Source: Rhodococcus sp. ARC_M6 (lineage in GTDB: Bacteria > Actinomycetota > Actinomycetes > Mycobacteriales > Mycobacteriaceae). Taken from it: a stretch of 64,000 nt of DNA. The stretch is taken from assembly GCF_022810305.1 (NCBI RefSeq), contig NZ_JALGQH010000004.1:266690-330689 (forward strand), in the 5' to 3' direction. A program made the position numbers and the translations under genes. The first letter of the stretch is position 1, and the number at the start of each line of letters is the position of its first letter. Shown piece after piece: positions 1,242 through 6,252 of this stretch. Below the pieces are notes generated by a model. That model ran no database searches and had not been told where the DNA came from. It saw only the letters and a program-made list of their open reading frames with translations.

Positions 1242-2519
1242 TCACAGTCTGCGGGCGATCGATTCCGCCTGGGCGCCCAATTTGGCCAACCTCAGGTCGG
1301 CAAACGGAGTGAGGGCACCGCCCATTCGGTTGGTCACGAATGCCACCGACAAGCAGGTCTCAGGGTCCGCGAATGCCCCGGATCCACCAAGCCCGTAGTG
1401 TCCGAAGGCCTGCAGCGACGAATTTCGGCTGGCAACAAAGGCCGAGTGATAGCCGAGTCGCCAGTTCATGCGGATTCCGAGCACATAGTCGCGCGCCGTG
1501 GTCTGTACCTCGCCCATCTGTTCCAGGGTCTCTTCACTCAGGAATCTGTTTCCTCCCACCATTCCCTGGTTGGCAAGTGCTGCGTACATTCGGGCAAGGG
1601 CGCGAGCACTGAAAACGCCGTTCCAGCCGGGCATGACGTAATCGTGGATCGAGGGATTGCGGACCAACTGGTCGAACCCCGTCGGCATGCCGGCATCCGC
1701 GATATTCCTGAGCGCAGGCAACCGGGTCAACGCGAAGGAAGCGGTGTCCCACGGAACCTTGAACTGATTGATGCGGGGGAACAACTTTGCGATGCGATGG
1801 CGTTCGTCCTCGGGCACCTGGAACCAGAATTCCGGAATTCCGAGAGGATCCGCGATCTCTGTACGGACCAGGTCGGTAAACGATGAACCAGTTGCGCGAG
1901 TTGTCAGTTCGGCGACCAGCGAACCGAATGTGACTGCGTGATAACCGGGTGTGGTGAGGCGGCGACGGTCCGGTGTGGCCAATGCGAGGGCGCCGACGAT
2001 GCTGTCGTGATCGAGCAGCGCCAATCGGCCCGGAACCAGGCCGCGTACACGATGCAACCCGGCCTGGTGGGTCAACAGTTGCCGCACCGTCACAGTTTCC
2101 TTGCCTGCACTTGCGAACTCCGGCCAATACTCGGCGACCGGTGTGTCGTAATCGATCAGCCCACGTTCCACGACACGGTGCAAAACCGTACTGGCAACAC
2201 CCTTTCCGGTGGAGAAGGACACAGACACGGTGTCGGGTAGCCAGCGGGTATCCCGAGTCGACCACCCTGCCCAGATATCGACGACGGGCTCCCCGCCGAG
2301 ATAGACCGCCAATGCTCCACCGCCGCTGGAAGGGCGTTCGAAGAGGCGAAAGAATTGCCCGGCCAGCTGCCCGAACCGCGGGTCGACCAGCATGACACGT
2401 GGCGTGGAAACAGTGGGAATCACGGCTGAAGCGTCGCGACGGACCGTCGAAACATCGCGACGGACCGTCGGTGGAAGGTCGGTCGGAAGCAACCCCTCGA
2501 ACTCGGGGAGATTCGTCAT
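1242..2519 (-). CDS. Serine hydrolase of the beta-lactamase/esterase (EstB-like) family
   Basis: The protein is about 425 residues and carries the SxxK nucleophile motif in SFSTGKGVAST, followed by the helix typical of class C beta-lactamase-fold esterases. HYGLGGSGAF near the C-terminus fits the third active-site element. There is no signal peptide, so a cytosolic esterase or lipase-like role is likelier than cell-wall or drug hydrolysis. I chose the ATG at 2519 because GAGAAG lies 8 nt upstream; the GTG at 2528 would sit against that site. The N-terminal 40 residues are low in similarity to the fold and contain two copies of a heptad (TVRRDVS, TVRRDAS) encoded by a 21-nt tandem repeat. Confidence 0.85.
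   Translation of the reverse strand: MTNLPEFEGLLPTDLPPTVRRDVSTVRRDASAVIPTVSTPRVMLVDPRFGQLAGQFFRLFERPSSGGGALAVYLGGEPVVDIWAGWSTRDTRWLPDTVSVSFSTGKGVASTVLHRVVERGLIDYDTPVAEYWPEFASAGKETVTVRQLLTHQAGLHRVRGLVPGRLALLDHDSIVGALALATPDRRRLTTPGYHAVTFGSLVAELTTRATGSSFTDLVRTEIADPLGIPEFWFQVPEDERHRIAKLFPRINQFKVPWDTASFALTRLPALRNIADAGMPTGFDQLVRNPSIHDYVMPGWNGVFSARALARMYAALANQGMVGGNRFLSEETLEQMGEVQTTARDYVLGIRMNWRLGYHSAFVASRNSSLQAFGHYGLGGSGAFADPETCLSVAFVTNRMGGALTPFADLRLAKLGAQAESIARRL
2434..2470. repeat. Two-copy 21-nt tandem repeat inside the hydrolase N-terminus
   Basis: The 16-mer TCGCGACGGACCGTCG occurs at 2434-2449 and again at 2455-2470. Each copy contains the palindrome CGACGG-A-CCGTCG. On the coding strand it produces the repeated peptide VRRD(V/A)S in the poorly conserved leader of the serine hydrolase. 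Confidence 0.85.
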
Positions 2520-2808
2520 AATGTGCACTTCTCATTCAACCGGGGGTCGCTGATTACCACCCTGTTACTTCTCTGAAACACTCCGGAAACCGGCAGGATT
2601 CCACGGTTGGGGCTATTGGGGCAGATGGAGCAGAAGTGCCCTAAGACAAGGACTTGCGGCAGGACGGATGACACTTTTTTGCTCGTGGAAGTCGAGCAGA
2701 AAGACCCTGTGGATGTGTCGGGGAACAGCGCATCCTGAGGGAAGACGCGTGAGACGCCCCTTCGAGGGAGTGCGCACGGCCGCATGGAGAACTTGGAGGC
2801 CCGTTGTG

Positions 2809-3099
2809 ATGTACGACCATTATTCCGGTAGTTGGGGTTGGGGTTACGTACTGATGTTCGTTGGTATGGCCCTGTTCTGGGGCCTGCTGATCTTGGGGAT
2901 TTTTCTGCTGATTCGCTATGCCGGACACGGACCCGCGGAGTCTGGAAGTAGGTCGTCCGGAAGCAGTCCGTCGGCAAGTTTTCCGCCGCCGCATCACAGC
3001 GCCGAGCAACTTCTTGCTGAGCGTTACGCGCGTGGGGAGATCGACGAGGCCGAGTACAGGAGCCGCCTGACTGTTTTACGAACAGAGCCGTCCCCCTGA
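2809..3099 (+). CDS. Small membrane protein with C-terminal SHOCT domain
   Basis: A 96-residue protein: a short aromatic N-terminus (MYDHYSGSWGWGY), one hydrophobic transmembrane segment (VLMFVGMALFWGLLILGIFL), a Ser-rich linker, and a C-terminal SHOCT motif (AEQLLAERYARGEIDEAEY), a short oligomerisation motif common in actinobacterial and sporulation-associated membrane proteins. A GGAGG at 2795-2799 places the start at GTG 2806 or ATG 2809. It is divergent from the serine hydrolase, with about 280 nt between them that hold no other gene I can see. Function unknown. Confidence 0.85.
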   Translation: MYDHYSGSWGWGYVLMFVGMALFWGLLILGIFLLIRYAGHGPAESGSRSSGSSPSASFPPPHHSAEQLLAERYARGEIDEAEYRSRLTVLRTEPSP

Positions 3100-3147: not shown

Positions 3148-4251
3148 ATGGTCAAACGCTGGCTGGTGACGGACGCGGAATGCGACGACACACGAGAGCC
3201 GTATCGAACGCGGGTGGCCGGGGCAGGTCGGCATTTTCCCGTCACACGACTCACGACCGAGGATTTGATGGCAACAACACGCCACGAAACTCATGTCGAC
3301 CTCGAACGACTGACTGGAATCCACGAGCGTCGGGTCAGTGTGGGCGACGAGGATTCCTACACACTTGGGATTGCAGCCGCGCAGGATGCATTGCGACGGT
3401 CGGGTTGTGCCGCCGAGTCGATAAACGTGGTGATCAGCTGCAGCATCACCAAGTTTCGTGGCGGCCTCACTCAGTGGCTCGAGCCGACAATGAGTAGTGG
3501 CGTTGCGCAGGCTCTCGGGGCCGACAAGGCTATGACTTTCGATTTGTCGAATGCTTGCGCTGGGATGCTCACCGGTGTGATGGTGGCCAACAACTGGATT
3601 CGTCAGGGCTTGATCGAGCGGGCGCTGGTCGTCAGCGGTGAGTACATCTCGCAGCTCGGTCAGAATGCCGCGAAGCATATTCACAACATCATGAGCAAAG
3701 AGTTAGCTTCCCTCACCTTGGGCGATGCGGGCGCGGCGCTCGTCCTCGAACGTGCGCCCGCCGGTGCGGCGGGGATCCGGCTCGCGGGATTTACGACTGT
3801 CGCCGACTACAGCCGGTTGTGCCTGGCTTACCCGAAGGGCAATGCGCCGGGTGCTCGCATGTTCACCAATTCGCGAGCCATTCAGAAGGCCGCTATCGCC
3901 GACACTCCGTTGCTGTTGCACGAGGTACTCGACACGCTCGGGCTGTCGATCCACGACATTGACCATGTGATCACCCATCAAACTTCGGCGCGGGCAATCA
4001 AGAAGGGTATGGCGCAGATGGAGGCGTCGTTCGGCGATAGTCCGCGGCACGACGCGGTCATAACCGTCGATCGATACGGGAACACGGCTTCGACAACCCA
4101 CACGGTGGCGTTGGTCGAAGAACTCGAGGCAGGCCATATCAAGCCGGGAGAGACCGTTGCGTTGATCTCTTTGGCCTCCGGGTTGGAGATCGGGGTAGTC
4201 CTGGTGGAAATCGACGAAGAACTGGTGGCGCGCTATGGGAACGATCATTGA
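3148..4251 (+). CDS. FabH-like (KAS III family) condensing enzyme with complete active site
   Basis: The 367-residue thiolase-fold protein has the full KAS III triad: Cys137 in SNACAGMLTG, His277 in ITHQTSARAI and Asn312 in RYGNTASTTH. The family takes an acyl-CoA or acyl-ACP onto the cysteine and transfers or condenses it. The substrate loops differ from housekeeping FabH, and it lies away from the FAS-II operon at 28-32 kb, so a role in a specialised acyl product is more likely than primary fatty-acid synthesis. The next gene overlaps it by 17 nt and encodes a second FabH-like protein, which suggests a heterodimer. The start ATG 3148 follows GTGAGG at a workable distance. Confidence 0.85.
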   Translation: MVKRWLVTDAECDDTREPYRTRVAGAGRHFPVTRLTTEDLMATTRHETHVDLERLTGIHERRVSVGDEDSYTLGIAAAQDALRRSGCAAESINVVISCSITKFRGGLTQWLEPTMSSGVAQALGADKAMTFDLSNACAGMLTGVMVANNWIRQGLIERALVVSGEYISQLGQNAAKHIHNIMSKELASLTLGDAGAALVLERAPAGAAGIRLAGFTTVADYSRLCLAYPKGNAPGARMFTNSRAIQKAAIADTPLLLHEVLDTLGLSIHDIDHVITHQTSARAIKKGMAQMEASFGDSPRHDAVITVDRYGNTASTTHTVALVEELEAGHIKPGETVALISLASGLEIGVVLVEIDEELVARYGNDH

Positions 4252-5158
4252 GCAGCTGTACGTCACTCGGGCTGGATGGCTGAGTCGGCACAGTGCACTT
4301 CACCTTGCGGTAGCGGCGGCGAAGTCTTGCCTCGAACAGGCCGGATGCCGCCCGGACGACTTGGATCTGCTCCTGAACGCCGGCCTGTATCGTGACCGCA
4401 ACCTTGGTGAGCCGGCCCTCGCTGCGCTGATCCAAGACGACATCGGGGCGCATCCGGAGGACCCGCACACCGGCGAGCACGGCACGTTCTCCTTCGATAT
4501 TGCGAACGGTACCTGTGGTGTCCTGACCGCACTGCAGATTGTCGACGGATTCCTTCGCTCTCACGTGATCGAACGTGCCCTCGTCGTTGCCAGTGATGCG
4601 GACCCGGGACATCGGCTAAGTGAGCGGTTTCCGTTTTCGGCAGTCGGGGGAGCCGCGTTGTGTCGTTGGACCGACGATGAGTACGGGCTCGGCCCAGTGC
4701 AGTGGCTGAATAATCTCGACGGTGGTGATTCTTTCCGGGCAACGGTCAGCCAAGCCGACAACCGAAACATTCTGCGTTTCAACGAGTCCAATTCACTCGA
4801 CGACGACTACGCCGCAGCAGGCTACGAAGCAGTAGCTGCCTGTCTGAAGCAGGCGGAACTCGATCTGGCGGCGGTCGATTCCATCGTGGCCGCTCCCGCC
4901 TGCCCAGGCTTTCGTTCGGCATTGGCAACAAAGCTGGGGATACCAAGCTCAGGCGTCACCGTTGCCGAAGACGAGCACATACATACCGCTGCACTGATCG
5001 CAGGTTTGGAGAGGGACGAACCCCGACGGTCTGCGGGAACACGGATAATTCTTGTAACAGTGGGAGCCGGCGTGACAGCCGGTGCCGCTCTGTACAACGT
5101 CCCGCCGAACCACGAAGCGCACACAGCGACAGGGCTTGACGGTGCCGGGTCGAACTAA
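4235..5158 (+). CDS. Second FabH-like protein, active site incomplete
   Basis: This 307-residue protein keeps the thiolase-fold pattern and a cysteine (Cys94, IANGTCGVLTALQ). The histidine motif is replaced by VAAPACPGF and no NxxA asparagine motif is seen near DEHIHTAAL. It is about 60 residues shorter than its upstream partner. Its ATG lies inside the preceding gene (17-nt overlap), so the two are translationally coupled. Pairs of one complete and one degenerate FabH-like subunit are known from PqsB/PqsC of Pseudomonas, where only the complete subunit is acylated. By analogy I infer a structural or partner subunit of a heteromeric condensing enzyme. It could also be an independent acyltransferase that uses only the cysteine. 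Confidence 0.75.
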   Translation: MGTIIEQLYVTRAGWLSRHSALHLAVAAAKSCLEQAGCRPDDLDLLLNAGLYRDRNLGEPALAALIQDDIGAHPEDPHTGEHGTFSFDIANGTCGVLTALQIVDGFLRSHVIERALVVASDADPGHRLSERFPFSAVGGAALCRWTDDEYGLGPVQWLNNLDGGDSFRATVSQADNRNILRFNESNSLDDDYAAAGYEAVAACLKQAELDLAAVDSIVAAPACPGFRSALATKLGIPSSGVTVAEDEHIHTAALIAGLERDEPRRSAGTRIILVTVGAGVTAGAALYNVPPNHEAHTATGLDGAGSN

Positions 5159-5215
5159 GTTGACTACAGGGGTTGCATGAGACGCGGTGTCACACTAAGT
5201 TTAGGCGCAATCGAG

Positions 5216-5237
5216 TTCGTTGATCGCGATCGACGAA
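5216..5237. promoter_or_regulatory. 22-bp palindromic operator candidate upstream of the AurF-like gene
   Basis: The sequence reads TTCGTTGATC then GCGATCGACGAA across 5216-5237. It is an inverted repeat that matches in all but one base pair of 11. It ends 22 nt before the ATG of the di-iron oxygenase gene and lies after the stop of the FabH-like pair. Size and symmetry suit a TetR-type dimeric repressor, but no regulator gene is adjacent. Confidence 0.5.
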
Positions 5238-5259
5238 CAGGCGCCTTGAGGAGACACCG

Positions 5260-6252
5260 ATGGTTCGGTCAACGTCTATTGAAATGGATCAGCCTTACCG
5301 CGAGTTGCTCGCAACACTCTCCGATGGTTCCGTTCACAAGCGGTTCGATCCCTACCTCGATATTGACTGGGATTCAACGGAATTCGCGATAGACCCGAAT
5401 GATCCGCGCTGGGTGCTCTCGGCGGTGTCGGATCCACTCGGCGCCACCCGTTGGTATCAGGATCAACCGCTGGAACGTCGTATCGCGATGGGAAAGTGGC
5501 GCCAGGCGAATGTAACCAAGGTGGGCTCGGCATTCGAGAGCATCCTGATCCGCGGGATGCTGCAGTACATCATGGCACTACCCAACCAATCTCCCGAGTT
5601 TCGGTACTGCCTTCACGAGATGACCGAAGAGTGCAATCACATCCAGATGTTCCAGGAATTCGTGAATCGGGTGGACGTCGACGTGCCGGGGATGCGTCCG
5701 TTATTCCGGCGTTTGTCACCGTTTGTGGGGTTGCTTGGCGCCAAGTTCCCGGTCATCTTCTTTATTGGCATCCTTGCCGGTGAAGAGCCTATCGACCATT
5801 TTCAGAAAGACCTTATCCGTGAAGGTAAGGATACGGTGCCGGTCATGCTGCGCACCATGGAGATTCACATTGCCGAAGAGGCGCGGCACATCTCCTTTGC
5901 TCACGATTTTCTGCGCCAGCGTGTTCCAGCGCTGAGTCCGTTCGGTCGAGCGATGACGTCCGTTGCCTTTCCCGGTGCCATGCGGTGGCTGTCCGGCGAA
6001 ATAATGTCACCGCCAAAGGAATTCGCGAAGAAGTTCGACATTCCCGAGTCGGTGATAAGAGAAGCGTTCTGGAGCAGTCCGCAGTCGCGTCGAATTCTGG
6101 GTAACTACTTTGGTGAAATGCGCACGCTGGCAGACGAACTCGGATTGATGAATCCTGTGTCGAGGCGGGCGTGGAGAAAGCTGGGTATTGCCGGCGACAT
6201 GGCCCGGTATCGCGGCGAACCGAGGCGCTCGGAGAAGGTGCGAGTCGCCTAG
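5260..6252 (+). CDS. AurF-like di-iron oxygenase (N-oxygenase family)
   Basis: The 330-residue protein shows the seven ligands expected for the AurF di-iron centre: Glu93 (AFESIL), Glu124 and His127 (EECNH), Glu175 or Glu176 (LAGEEPID), His203, Glu207 and His210 (EIHIAEEARH). AurF oxidises an arylamine to a nitro group; relatives act on other amines or carry out other oxygenations. The ATG at 5260 has GAGGAG about 6 nt upstream. Separated by 101 nt and a palindrome from the FabH-like pair, it may be a tailoring enzyme of the same pathway under its own control. The substrate is unknown. The assignment to the AurF family is strong, but N-oxygenation itself is inference. Confidence 0.87.
   Translation: MVRSTSIEMDQPYRELLATLSDGSVHKRFDPYLDIDWDSTEFAIDPNDPRWVLSAVSDPLGATRWYQDQPLERRIAMGKWRQANVTKVGSAFESILIRGMLQYIMALPNQSPEFRYCLHEMTEECNHIQMFQEFVNRVDVDVPGMRPLFRRLSPFVGLLGAKFPVIFFIGILAGEEPIDHFQKDLIREGKDTVPVMLRTMEIHIAEEARHISFAHDFLRQRVPALSPFGRAMTSVAFPGAMRWLSGEIMSPPKEFAKKFDIPESVIREAFWSSPQSRRILGNYFGEMRTLADELGLMNPVSRRAWRKLGIAGDMARYRGEPRRSEKVRVA

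Follow-up and report, generated by a model that had tools for sequence, protein, structure and literature searches.

A coupled pair of KAS III-type proteins in Rhodococcus: a probable condensing enzyme of OleA/LstAB type in dormancy-type gene neighbourhoods

Introduction

A 64,000-nucleotide stretch of a Rhodococcus sp. ARC_M6 contig (NZ_JALGQH010000004.1, positions 266,690 to 330,689; hereafter the window) carries three consecutive genes on one strand, which raise the question of whether they work together and on what. Gene A encodes a protein resembling KAS III condensing enzymes, gene B a degenerate relative of it, and gene C a di-iron protein of the AurF family. The initial annotation had read them as a minimal cluster for making an amine that is acylated and N-oxidised, with A and B modelled on the heterodimeric PqsBC enzyme and C as the amine oxidiser. 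Here, we compare the three genes with their relatives and find that, by their distribution, they are two unrelated pieces: the A-B pair, and C as a neighbour in this lineage only. For A-B, the explanation that we favour and hold to be reasonably probable is a heterodimeric enzyme of the OleA/LstAB type, which would join two acyl-CoAs and feed a WS/DGAT acyltransferase in a dormancy-type metabolism. The observations behind it are gene order, gene overlap, conserved residues, predicted folds, neighbourhoods and gene fusions.

Results

Genes A and B form a conserved pair

A check of the open reading frames (ORFs) of the window places the three genes, and the 17-nucleotide overlap of A and B, where the initial annotation had put them (Table 1). 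The named A-B loci used below are the best 80 of 123 relatives found by scanning the genome collection, and B lies immediately 3' of A in 79 of these 80. The conservation of the overlap (Table 1) is far beyond chance, and the overlap itself suggests translational coupling. Like A, B matches PF08541 and PF08545 in the Pfam scan, with scores under both family cut-offs; no KAS III model of NCBIfam exceeds its own cut-off for either protein (fabH: cut-off 292.1 bits, 131.2 for A and 46.3 for B). We regard A and B as the coupled subunits of a KAS III-type condensing enzyme that is probably a heterodimer; this part of the initial annotation stands, without the third gene as a member.

The triad Cys137-His277-Asn312 of A is complete, as first annotated, and each of its residues is invariant in 83/83 orthologues, while B keeps none of them. 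B had been credited with a catalytic cysteine, Cys94, which the alignment does not bear out: where the two proteins align without gaps, around the anchor FD..N..G, A Cys137 falls opposite B position 93 (threonine in 42, alanine in 26 and serine in 16 of 84 orthologues), and Cys94, one residue past this column and replaced by valine in 2/13 more distant B proteins, is excluded as a catalytic remnant. Elsewhere in B, His250 (4982-4984), in an HTA/HTS motif two columns away from A Asn312, is invariant in 84/84 orthologues and in 13/13 further loci.

The two subunits share an invariant Glu-Pro dipeptide (A E112-P113 in 83/83 orthologues, B E59-P60 in 84/84), which also occurs in 13/13 more distant loci for A and for B alike. 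A Glu112 and B Glu59 fall in one alignment column, held by a threonine in three outgroup KAS III-like proteins.

A and B resemble LstAB and OleA

The accessible part of a study of lipstatin-type LstAB (PMC12141560) reports that LstA and LstB are soluble only together, that the triad resides in LstA, that changes at LstA Cys128, LstA His271 or LstB Glu60 abolish activity, and that the product, an alpha-branched beta-keto acid, is kept. For OleA, the accessible text of PMC7064751 describes the glutamate of Glu117-Pro in one subunit as the base in the active site of the other, presents the Glu-Pro dipeptide as unique to OleA homologues, and notes that the beta-keto acid becomes a ketone by decarboxylation in the assay. 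A-B is like LstA-LstB in being an adjacent KAS III-like pair with the triad in one subunit only, and LstB Glu60, as numbered in that part of the paper, stands at the same motif as B Glu59, both in the triad-less partner. The OleA of Xanthomonas campestris aligns with A in its Cys-His-Asn and Glu-Pro residues, and OleA chains top the structural matches of the A model (predicted local distance difference test score 79.1), with the others no more than 1-2 Z away. Unlike A-B, OleA is a homodimer, and OleB, OleC and OleD are absent from the neighbour families found around A-B.

With these residues, A-B would carry out a non-decarboxylative Claisen condensation joining two fatty acyl-CoAs head to head, a step that we consider quite likely. 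An acyl group would be held on A Cys137, with His277 and Asn312 assisting; B Glu59 would cross the dimer interface and remove the alpha proton of the second acyl chain; the beta-keto product would then leave the enzyme and, if present as the free acid, would lose CO2 to give a long-chain ketone. In the B model, loop 53-59, which ends at Glu59, is the low-confidence stretch within the monomer. The dimer, its activity and its substrates are what we infer from these comparisons.

PqsBC, the model chosen in the initial annotation, is also a heterodimer of KAS III-like subunits, one of them degenerate (the A-B dimer being predicted). A-B might likewise be a decarboxylating, KAS III- or PqsBC-like heterodimer in which B has a purely structural role and the acceptor of the acyl group is malonyl or a small molecule: among solved proteins, the best match in sequence is FabH for both A and B, and PqsC ties with OleA in the structural matches of B. 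PqsC matches A at 3.2e-15 and PqsB matches B at 0.0083, which are weak matches and the best of neither subunit, and no quinolone genes were seen near A-B. Against this stand the WS/DGAT fusion described below, which suggests long acyl substrates, and the Glu-Pro invariant in both subunits, in the available part of the OleA paper specific to OleA homologues (PMC7064751). We consider the decarboxylating enzyme unlikely. Since A and B invariably carry the Glu-Pro of LstAB/OleA, these enzymes serve better as a model than PqsBC.

The relation to LstAB also appears in a tree of 43 proteins, where the 20 A-type proteins all group behind one branch (support 98/98) and the 20 B-type proteins behind another (100/99), the three other KAS III-like rows used as the outgroup falling outside both groups (one further candidate was left out for length). 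Within the B group, the lipstatin-type rows have long branches and L090 and L091 as neighbours. On this tree, whose rows are proteins of dormancy-type and lipstatin-like loci standing in for authentic LstA and LstB, A shares descent with LstA-like and B with LstB-like proteins.

Distant A and B matches on Rhodococcus and Streptomyces plasmids lie with genes for an A-type and a B-type protein, an acyl-CoA ligase, an epimerase, a nonribosomal peptide synthetase (NRPS) and a formyltransferase, and lipstatin-like A-B with ligase and NRPS matches occurs in the genomes G007, G048, G002, G027 and G017. A-B could be imagined to open a beta-lactone or olefin pathway of the Lst, Nlt or Ole type, with the LstC/OleC ligase and a reductase elsewhere in the genome: its nearest paired relatives outside the group sit in such lipstatin-like clusters, and the conserved residues are identical. 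LstA-LstB and A-B differ in that A-B is ~31-35% identical to the lipstatin-like proteins aligned and, unlike LstA-LstB, has a dormancy-type context, a WS/DGAT fusion and no ligase or NRPS neighbours in the 80 loci. The neighbours of A-B are stress and storage genes, and an LstC-type ligase (E 1e-15, half the query) was found in 0/80 named loci, a distant ligase acting in trans not having been searched for. We give this pathway a low probability.

The lipstatin-like gene sets are those of L007, L008, L092, L093, L094, L107 and L108 (Rhodococcus and Streptomyces plasmids, five family genomes). L095 (G063) has a lipstatin-type A-B by sequence, with ligase and NRPS matches absent within its 19-kb stretch. 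In Mycobacterium sp. 4858 (L214:7018-12297, minus strand), a fused protein carries a KAS III domain with 39% identity to A after an NRPS module of condensation, adenylation and carrier domains, and an AMP-ligase/polyketide synthase gene adjoins.

A-B lies among dormancy-type genes and is fused to WS/DGAT in some genomes

The called genes around A-B were clustered into families whose representatives were scanned with Pfam and NCBIfam, OtsB, PpsA and hydrogenase being named from record annotations. Usp, an Acg/Rv3131-type FMN protein, WS/DGAT, an AAA protein, OtsB and PpsA recur, as do a GAF-HisKA_3 kinase, PfkB, Hsp20, a LuxR-type regulator, NiFe hydrogenase and CBS-BON. By tblastn, the 80 named loci contain Usp (51), Acg (50), WS/DGAT (50), OtsB (36), PpsA (35), the kinase (21), Hsp20 (20), PfkB (14), LuxR (11), hydrogenase (11) and CBS-BON (6). 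With WS/DGAT counted once, at least one of these 11 dormancy-type families is present in 74/80 loci versus 1/20 control regions (WS/DGAT there), and at least three in 62/80 versus 0/20, the controls being evenly spaced 19-kb regions of one Rhodococcus genome (G003) while most loci are mycobacterial, and the families having been picked for recurrence in these same loci, which share ancestry. On the same strand within at most 400 nucleotides, in 82 loci, B is followed by Usp (8), WS/DGAT (7) or Acg (3), and A is preceded by Acg (31), PpsA (7), WS/DGAT (3), AAA (3) or PNPOx (1).

The closest tie is to WS/DGAT. At six mycobacterial loci, its start overlaps the end of B by 13 nucleotides, with the HHxxxDG motif kept. 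The two genomes of genus g2 encode B and an entire WS/DGAT as one fusion protein (754 and 760 amino acids; Table 1). A search scored on the B part, restricted to long proteins, gave three matches, of which P0241 and P0242 are further B-WS/DGAT fusions. The four fusions are 67-84% identical and retain both Glu-Pro and HHxxxDG, so the fusion has persisted. Reductase-type genes adjoin in places: the order is WS/DGAT-A-B-WS/DGAT-ADH in L005 and SDR-A-(B-WS/DGAT) in L089.

The neighbourhood recalls the DosR regulon. In Mycobacterium avium, according to the available part of PMC11876180, genes for Usp, an Acg-type nitroreductase, a sensor kinase and PNPOx are DosR-dependent, and DosR controls no triglyceride synthase; for the M. 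tuberculosis regulon, that of PMC10034137 names heat shock proteins, triacylglycerol synthases, Usp and a nitroreductase. The four families named as DosR-dependent in M. avium recur around A-B, and a KAS III pair was not seen among the genes given in these excerpts. A literature search that covered few subscription journals showed, among the papers listed, no dormancy-linked KAS III/OleA pair and no report of OleA with a wax ester synthase, and such a pair was not found in the accessible parts of PMC6292918 and PMC2667194.

Around A-B, the kinase and the LuxR regulator occur together in 10/80 loci. Sites with at most seven mismatches to what we take to be the canonical DosR 20-mer consensus lie in 29/79 regions upstream of A versus 141/790 random windows, the best upstream sites having six mismatches while eight random windows reach five. 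The motif GGGNC-N4-GNCCC is found exactly in 9/79 upstream regions (43/1580 random windows, 52/1580 shuffles) and with one mismatch in 40/79 (393/1580 and 643/1580). A weight matrix built from 21 upstream sites (19 different) gave sites for Acg in 6/46, WS/DGAT in 4/41, CBS-BON in 3/8, Usp in 1/86 and Hsp20 in 0/15 cases; set against the 20/777 for other genes, these family counts show no general regulon signal.

Gene C is a neighbour of A-B in this lineage only

In an alignment of C with its 120 best listed relatives, E93, E124, H127, E176, H203, E207 and H210 are each invariant (121/121); these we take to be the AurF di-iron ligands, so that the full ligand set first ascribed to C is borne out. 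The AurF family is large in actinobacteria (of 6244 candidates, 4058 proteins match at E 0.001), with four matches in the window's genome, C among them, and distant relatives in 28/28 genomes of the genus; NCBIfam yields no family for C at E 0.01. Within this large family, C is an ordinary representative.

Across the 28 genus genomes (orthologue thresholds of at least 63% identity for B and at least 83% for C), A-B is present in 12 and a C orthologue in 10, with both in 5, A-B alone in 7 and C alone in 5. A-B adjoins C in only 2/28, the window's genome and G004, whose B is 96% identical to the window's and is separated from C by 397 nucleotides; where apart, the two lie ~26 kb (G003), ~426 kb (G017) and ~717 kb (G008) from each other. 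Among the 80 named A-B loci, C occurs in one, L109, which is the contig already met in G004. In 9/12 listed C loci, the window included, C is followed by a region with genes that we recognised by eye as UppS and GlyRS (exceptions: L096 of G003, L105 and L106).

The joint between the two pieces can be located. Positions 5168-6237 of the window align with the AurF locus L104, which has no A-B, so C has retained its own leader. The A-B loci share the window's sequence as far as 5096-5111 (G003 as far as 5245) and the L104 match begins at 5168, which places the joint close 3' of the B stop.

In G003 (G003:C1:4971523-4999867; L076, L096, L097), window positions 5168-5245 aligned at both ends by BLAST, which looks like a duplication of the C leader, and close to C there is a short remnant resembling B; of three exact 20-mers tried, one is present in L096 and none in L076.

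The reading of A, B and C as one short route to an N-oxidised amine bearing an acyl group drew on their adjacency on one strand, seen in the window and in G004/L109, and on the full di-iron ligand set of C. The gene neighbourhoods do not support it: the three genes are not regular neighbours in related genomes, the observation that the initial annotation itself had named as refuting it; only two of the five genomes with both A-B and C have them adjacent, and the leader of C is common to a locus without A-B. Such a pathway is highly improbable, and on the distribution across genus genomes and A-B loci we reject the AurF gene as a member of an A-B pathway.

Surroundings of A-B in the window

Upstream of A, the window carries a SHOCT-domain ORF and a LipL-like serine hydrolase gene (Table 1). 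A Rhodococcus qingshengii plasmid has the same LipL-SHOCT-A-B block, and there the genes that come next are those for Usp, OtsB, WS/DGAT and hydrogenase. The 20 kb to the left of the window (L189) contain matches to WS/DGAT (two places), NiFe hydrogenase, PfkB, PpsA and CBS-BON, after which the order runs ABC, LipL-like hydrolase, SHOCT, A, B.

Table 1. Coordinates of the A-B pair, gene C and associated features (window positions unless a locus is named; aa, amino acids).
Feature	Position	Strand	Remarks
LipL-like serine hydrolase	1242-2528	-	block LipL-SHOCT-A-B common to dormancy-type loci
SHOCT-domain ORF directly 5' of A	2668-3099	+	true start may be near 2809
Gene A, KAS III-like subunit with complete triad	3148-4251	+	367 aa; PF08541 3.9e-17, PF08545 4.1e-12
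A Glu112-Pro113, Glu codon	3481-3483	+	Glu-Pro invariant
A triad, Cys137	3556-3558	+	alignment of orthologues
A triad, His277	3976-3978	+	alignment of orthologues
A triad, Asn312	4081-4083	+	alignment of orthologues
A/B overlap, 17 nucleotides	4235-4251	+	kept in 77/79 loci
Gene B, triad-less partner subunit, KAS III fold	4235-5158	+	307 aa
B Glu59-Pro60, Glu codon	4409-4411	+	Glu-Pro invariant
C leader, joint between A-B block and AurF locus	5168-5259	+	common to AurF locus L104, which is without A-B
Gene C, AurF-family di-iron protein	5260-6252	+	330 aa; PF11583 4.1e-101, residues 11-295; adjoins A-B without belonging to its system
B-WS/DGAT fusion	L089:9172-11433	+	natural fusion with complete acyltransferase
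B-WS/DGAT fusion	L090:7741-10020	-	natural fusion with complete acyltransferase

Discussion

The A-B pair is best explained as an OleA/LstAB-type heterodimer whose product, likely a head-to-head ketone or the corresponding alcohol stored as an ester, would be handed to WS/DGAT. The steps after condensation are the least certain: a reductase, such as the SDR or ADH encoded next door in some genomes, would convert the ketone into a secondary alcohol, which WS/DGAT would esterify into a storage lipid. This route from ketone through alcohol to ester, drawn from the fusions and neighbours, is tentative; expression of A-B in hypoxia would be expected from the company it keeps.

Several points weigh against this explanation, beside the origin of the controls and the choice of families described above. 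On the enzyme itself, the best solved match of A is B. subtilis FabHA (1.9e-31; OleA 5.2e-23) and that of B a FabH (3.3e-9; OleA only 0.02); FabH-type, BioZ and PqsD chains come first among the structural matches of B, with PqsC and OleA tied about 2 Z below; and A retains Glu112, though it would act in the dead site of B. On the link to storage lipids, WS/DGAT lies directly 3' of B in only 7/82 loci and is missing from the stretch in 30/80, no reductase is a constant neighbour of A-B, a hydrolase follows the fusion in L090, and in L120 the genes after WS/DGAT encode a GNAT protein, a semialdehyde dehydrogenase, a kinase and an aminotransferase. On dormancy, six of the 80 loci (L118, L123, L124, L142, L150 and L170) have none of the 11 families, the DosR-like boxes upstream of A-B are a weak signal, and the window has no such box near A.

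The fate of the condensation product could also differ. The first reaction would be unchanged if the alpha-alkyl beta-keto acid escaped decarboxylation to a ketone and reduction turned it into a short hydroxy acid resembling a mycolate; LstAB keeps its alpha-branched beta-keto acid, as stated in the available part of PMC12141560, and an SDR gene adjoins A in L089. In the clusters examined, A-B has no thioesterase, ligase or carrier as a constant companion, and we judge the hydroxy acid improbable.

If OleA/LstAB-type condensation by A-B does supply WS/DGAT, rhodococci and many non-tuberculous mycobacteria could possess an unrecognised dormancy pathway, in which the A-B ketone, once reduced, is built into secondary-alcohol wax esters by a WS/DGAT that is coupled or fused; we offer this as a possibility, on the doubtful side of even. 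Such esters would serve as a carbon store and as an outlet for electrons once oxygen is exhausted, and the route would stand beside the known triacylglycerol route of these bacteria. The chemistry of OleA and LstAB is already familiar from the biosynthesis of membrane olefins and of natural products with a beta-lactone; a heterodimeric form in dormancy-type islands, fused to WS/DGAT, would bring long-chain Claisen condensation into storage and persistence lipid metabolism, and would put a new condensing enzyme on offer for oleaginous Rhodococcus.

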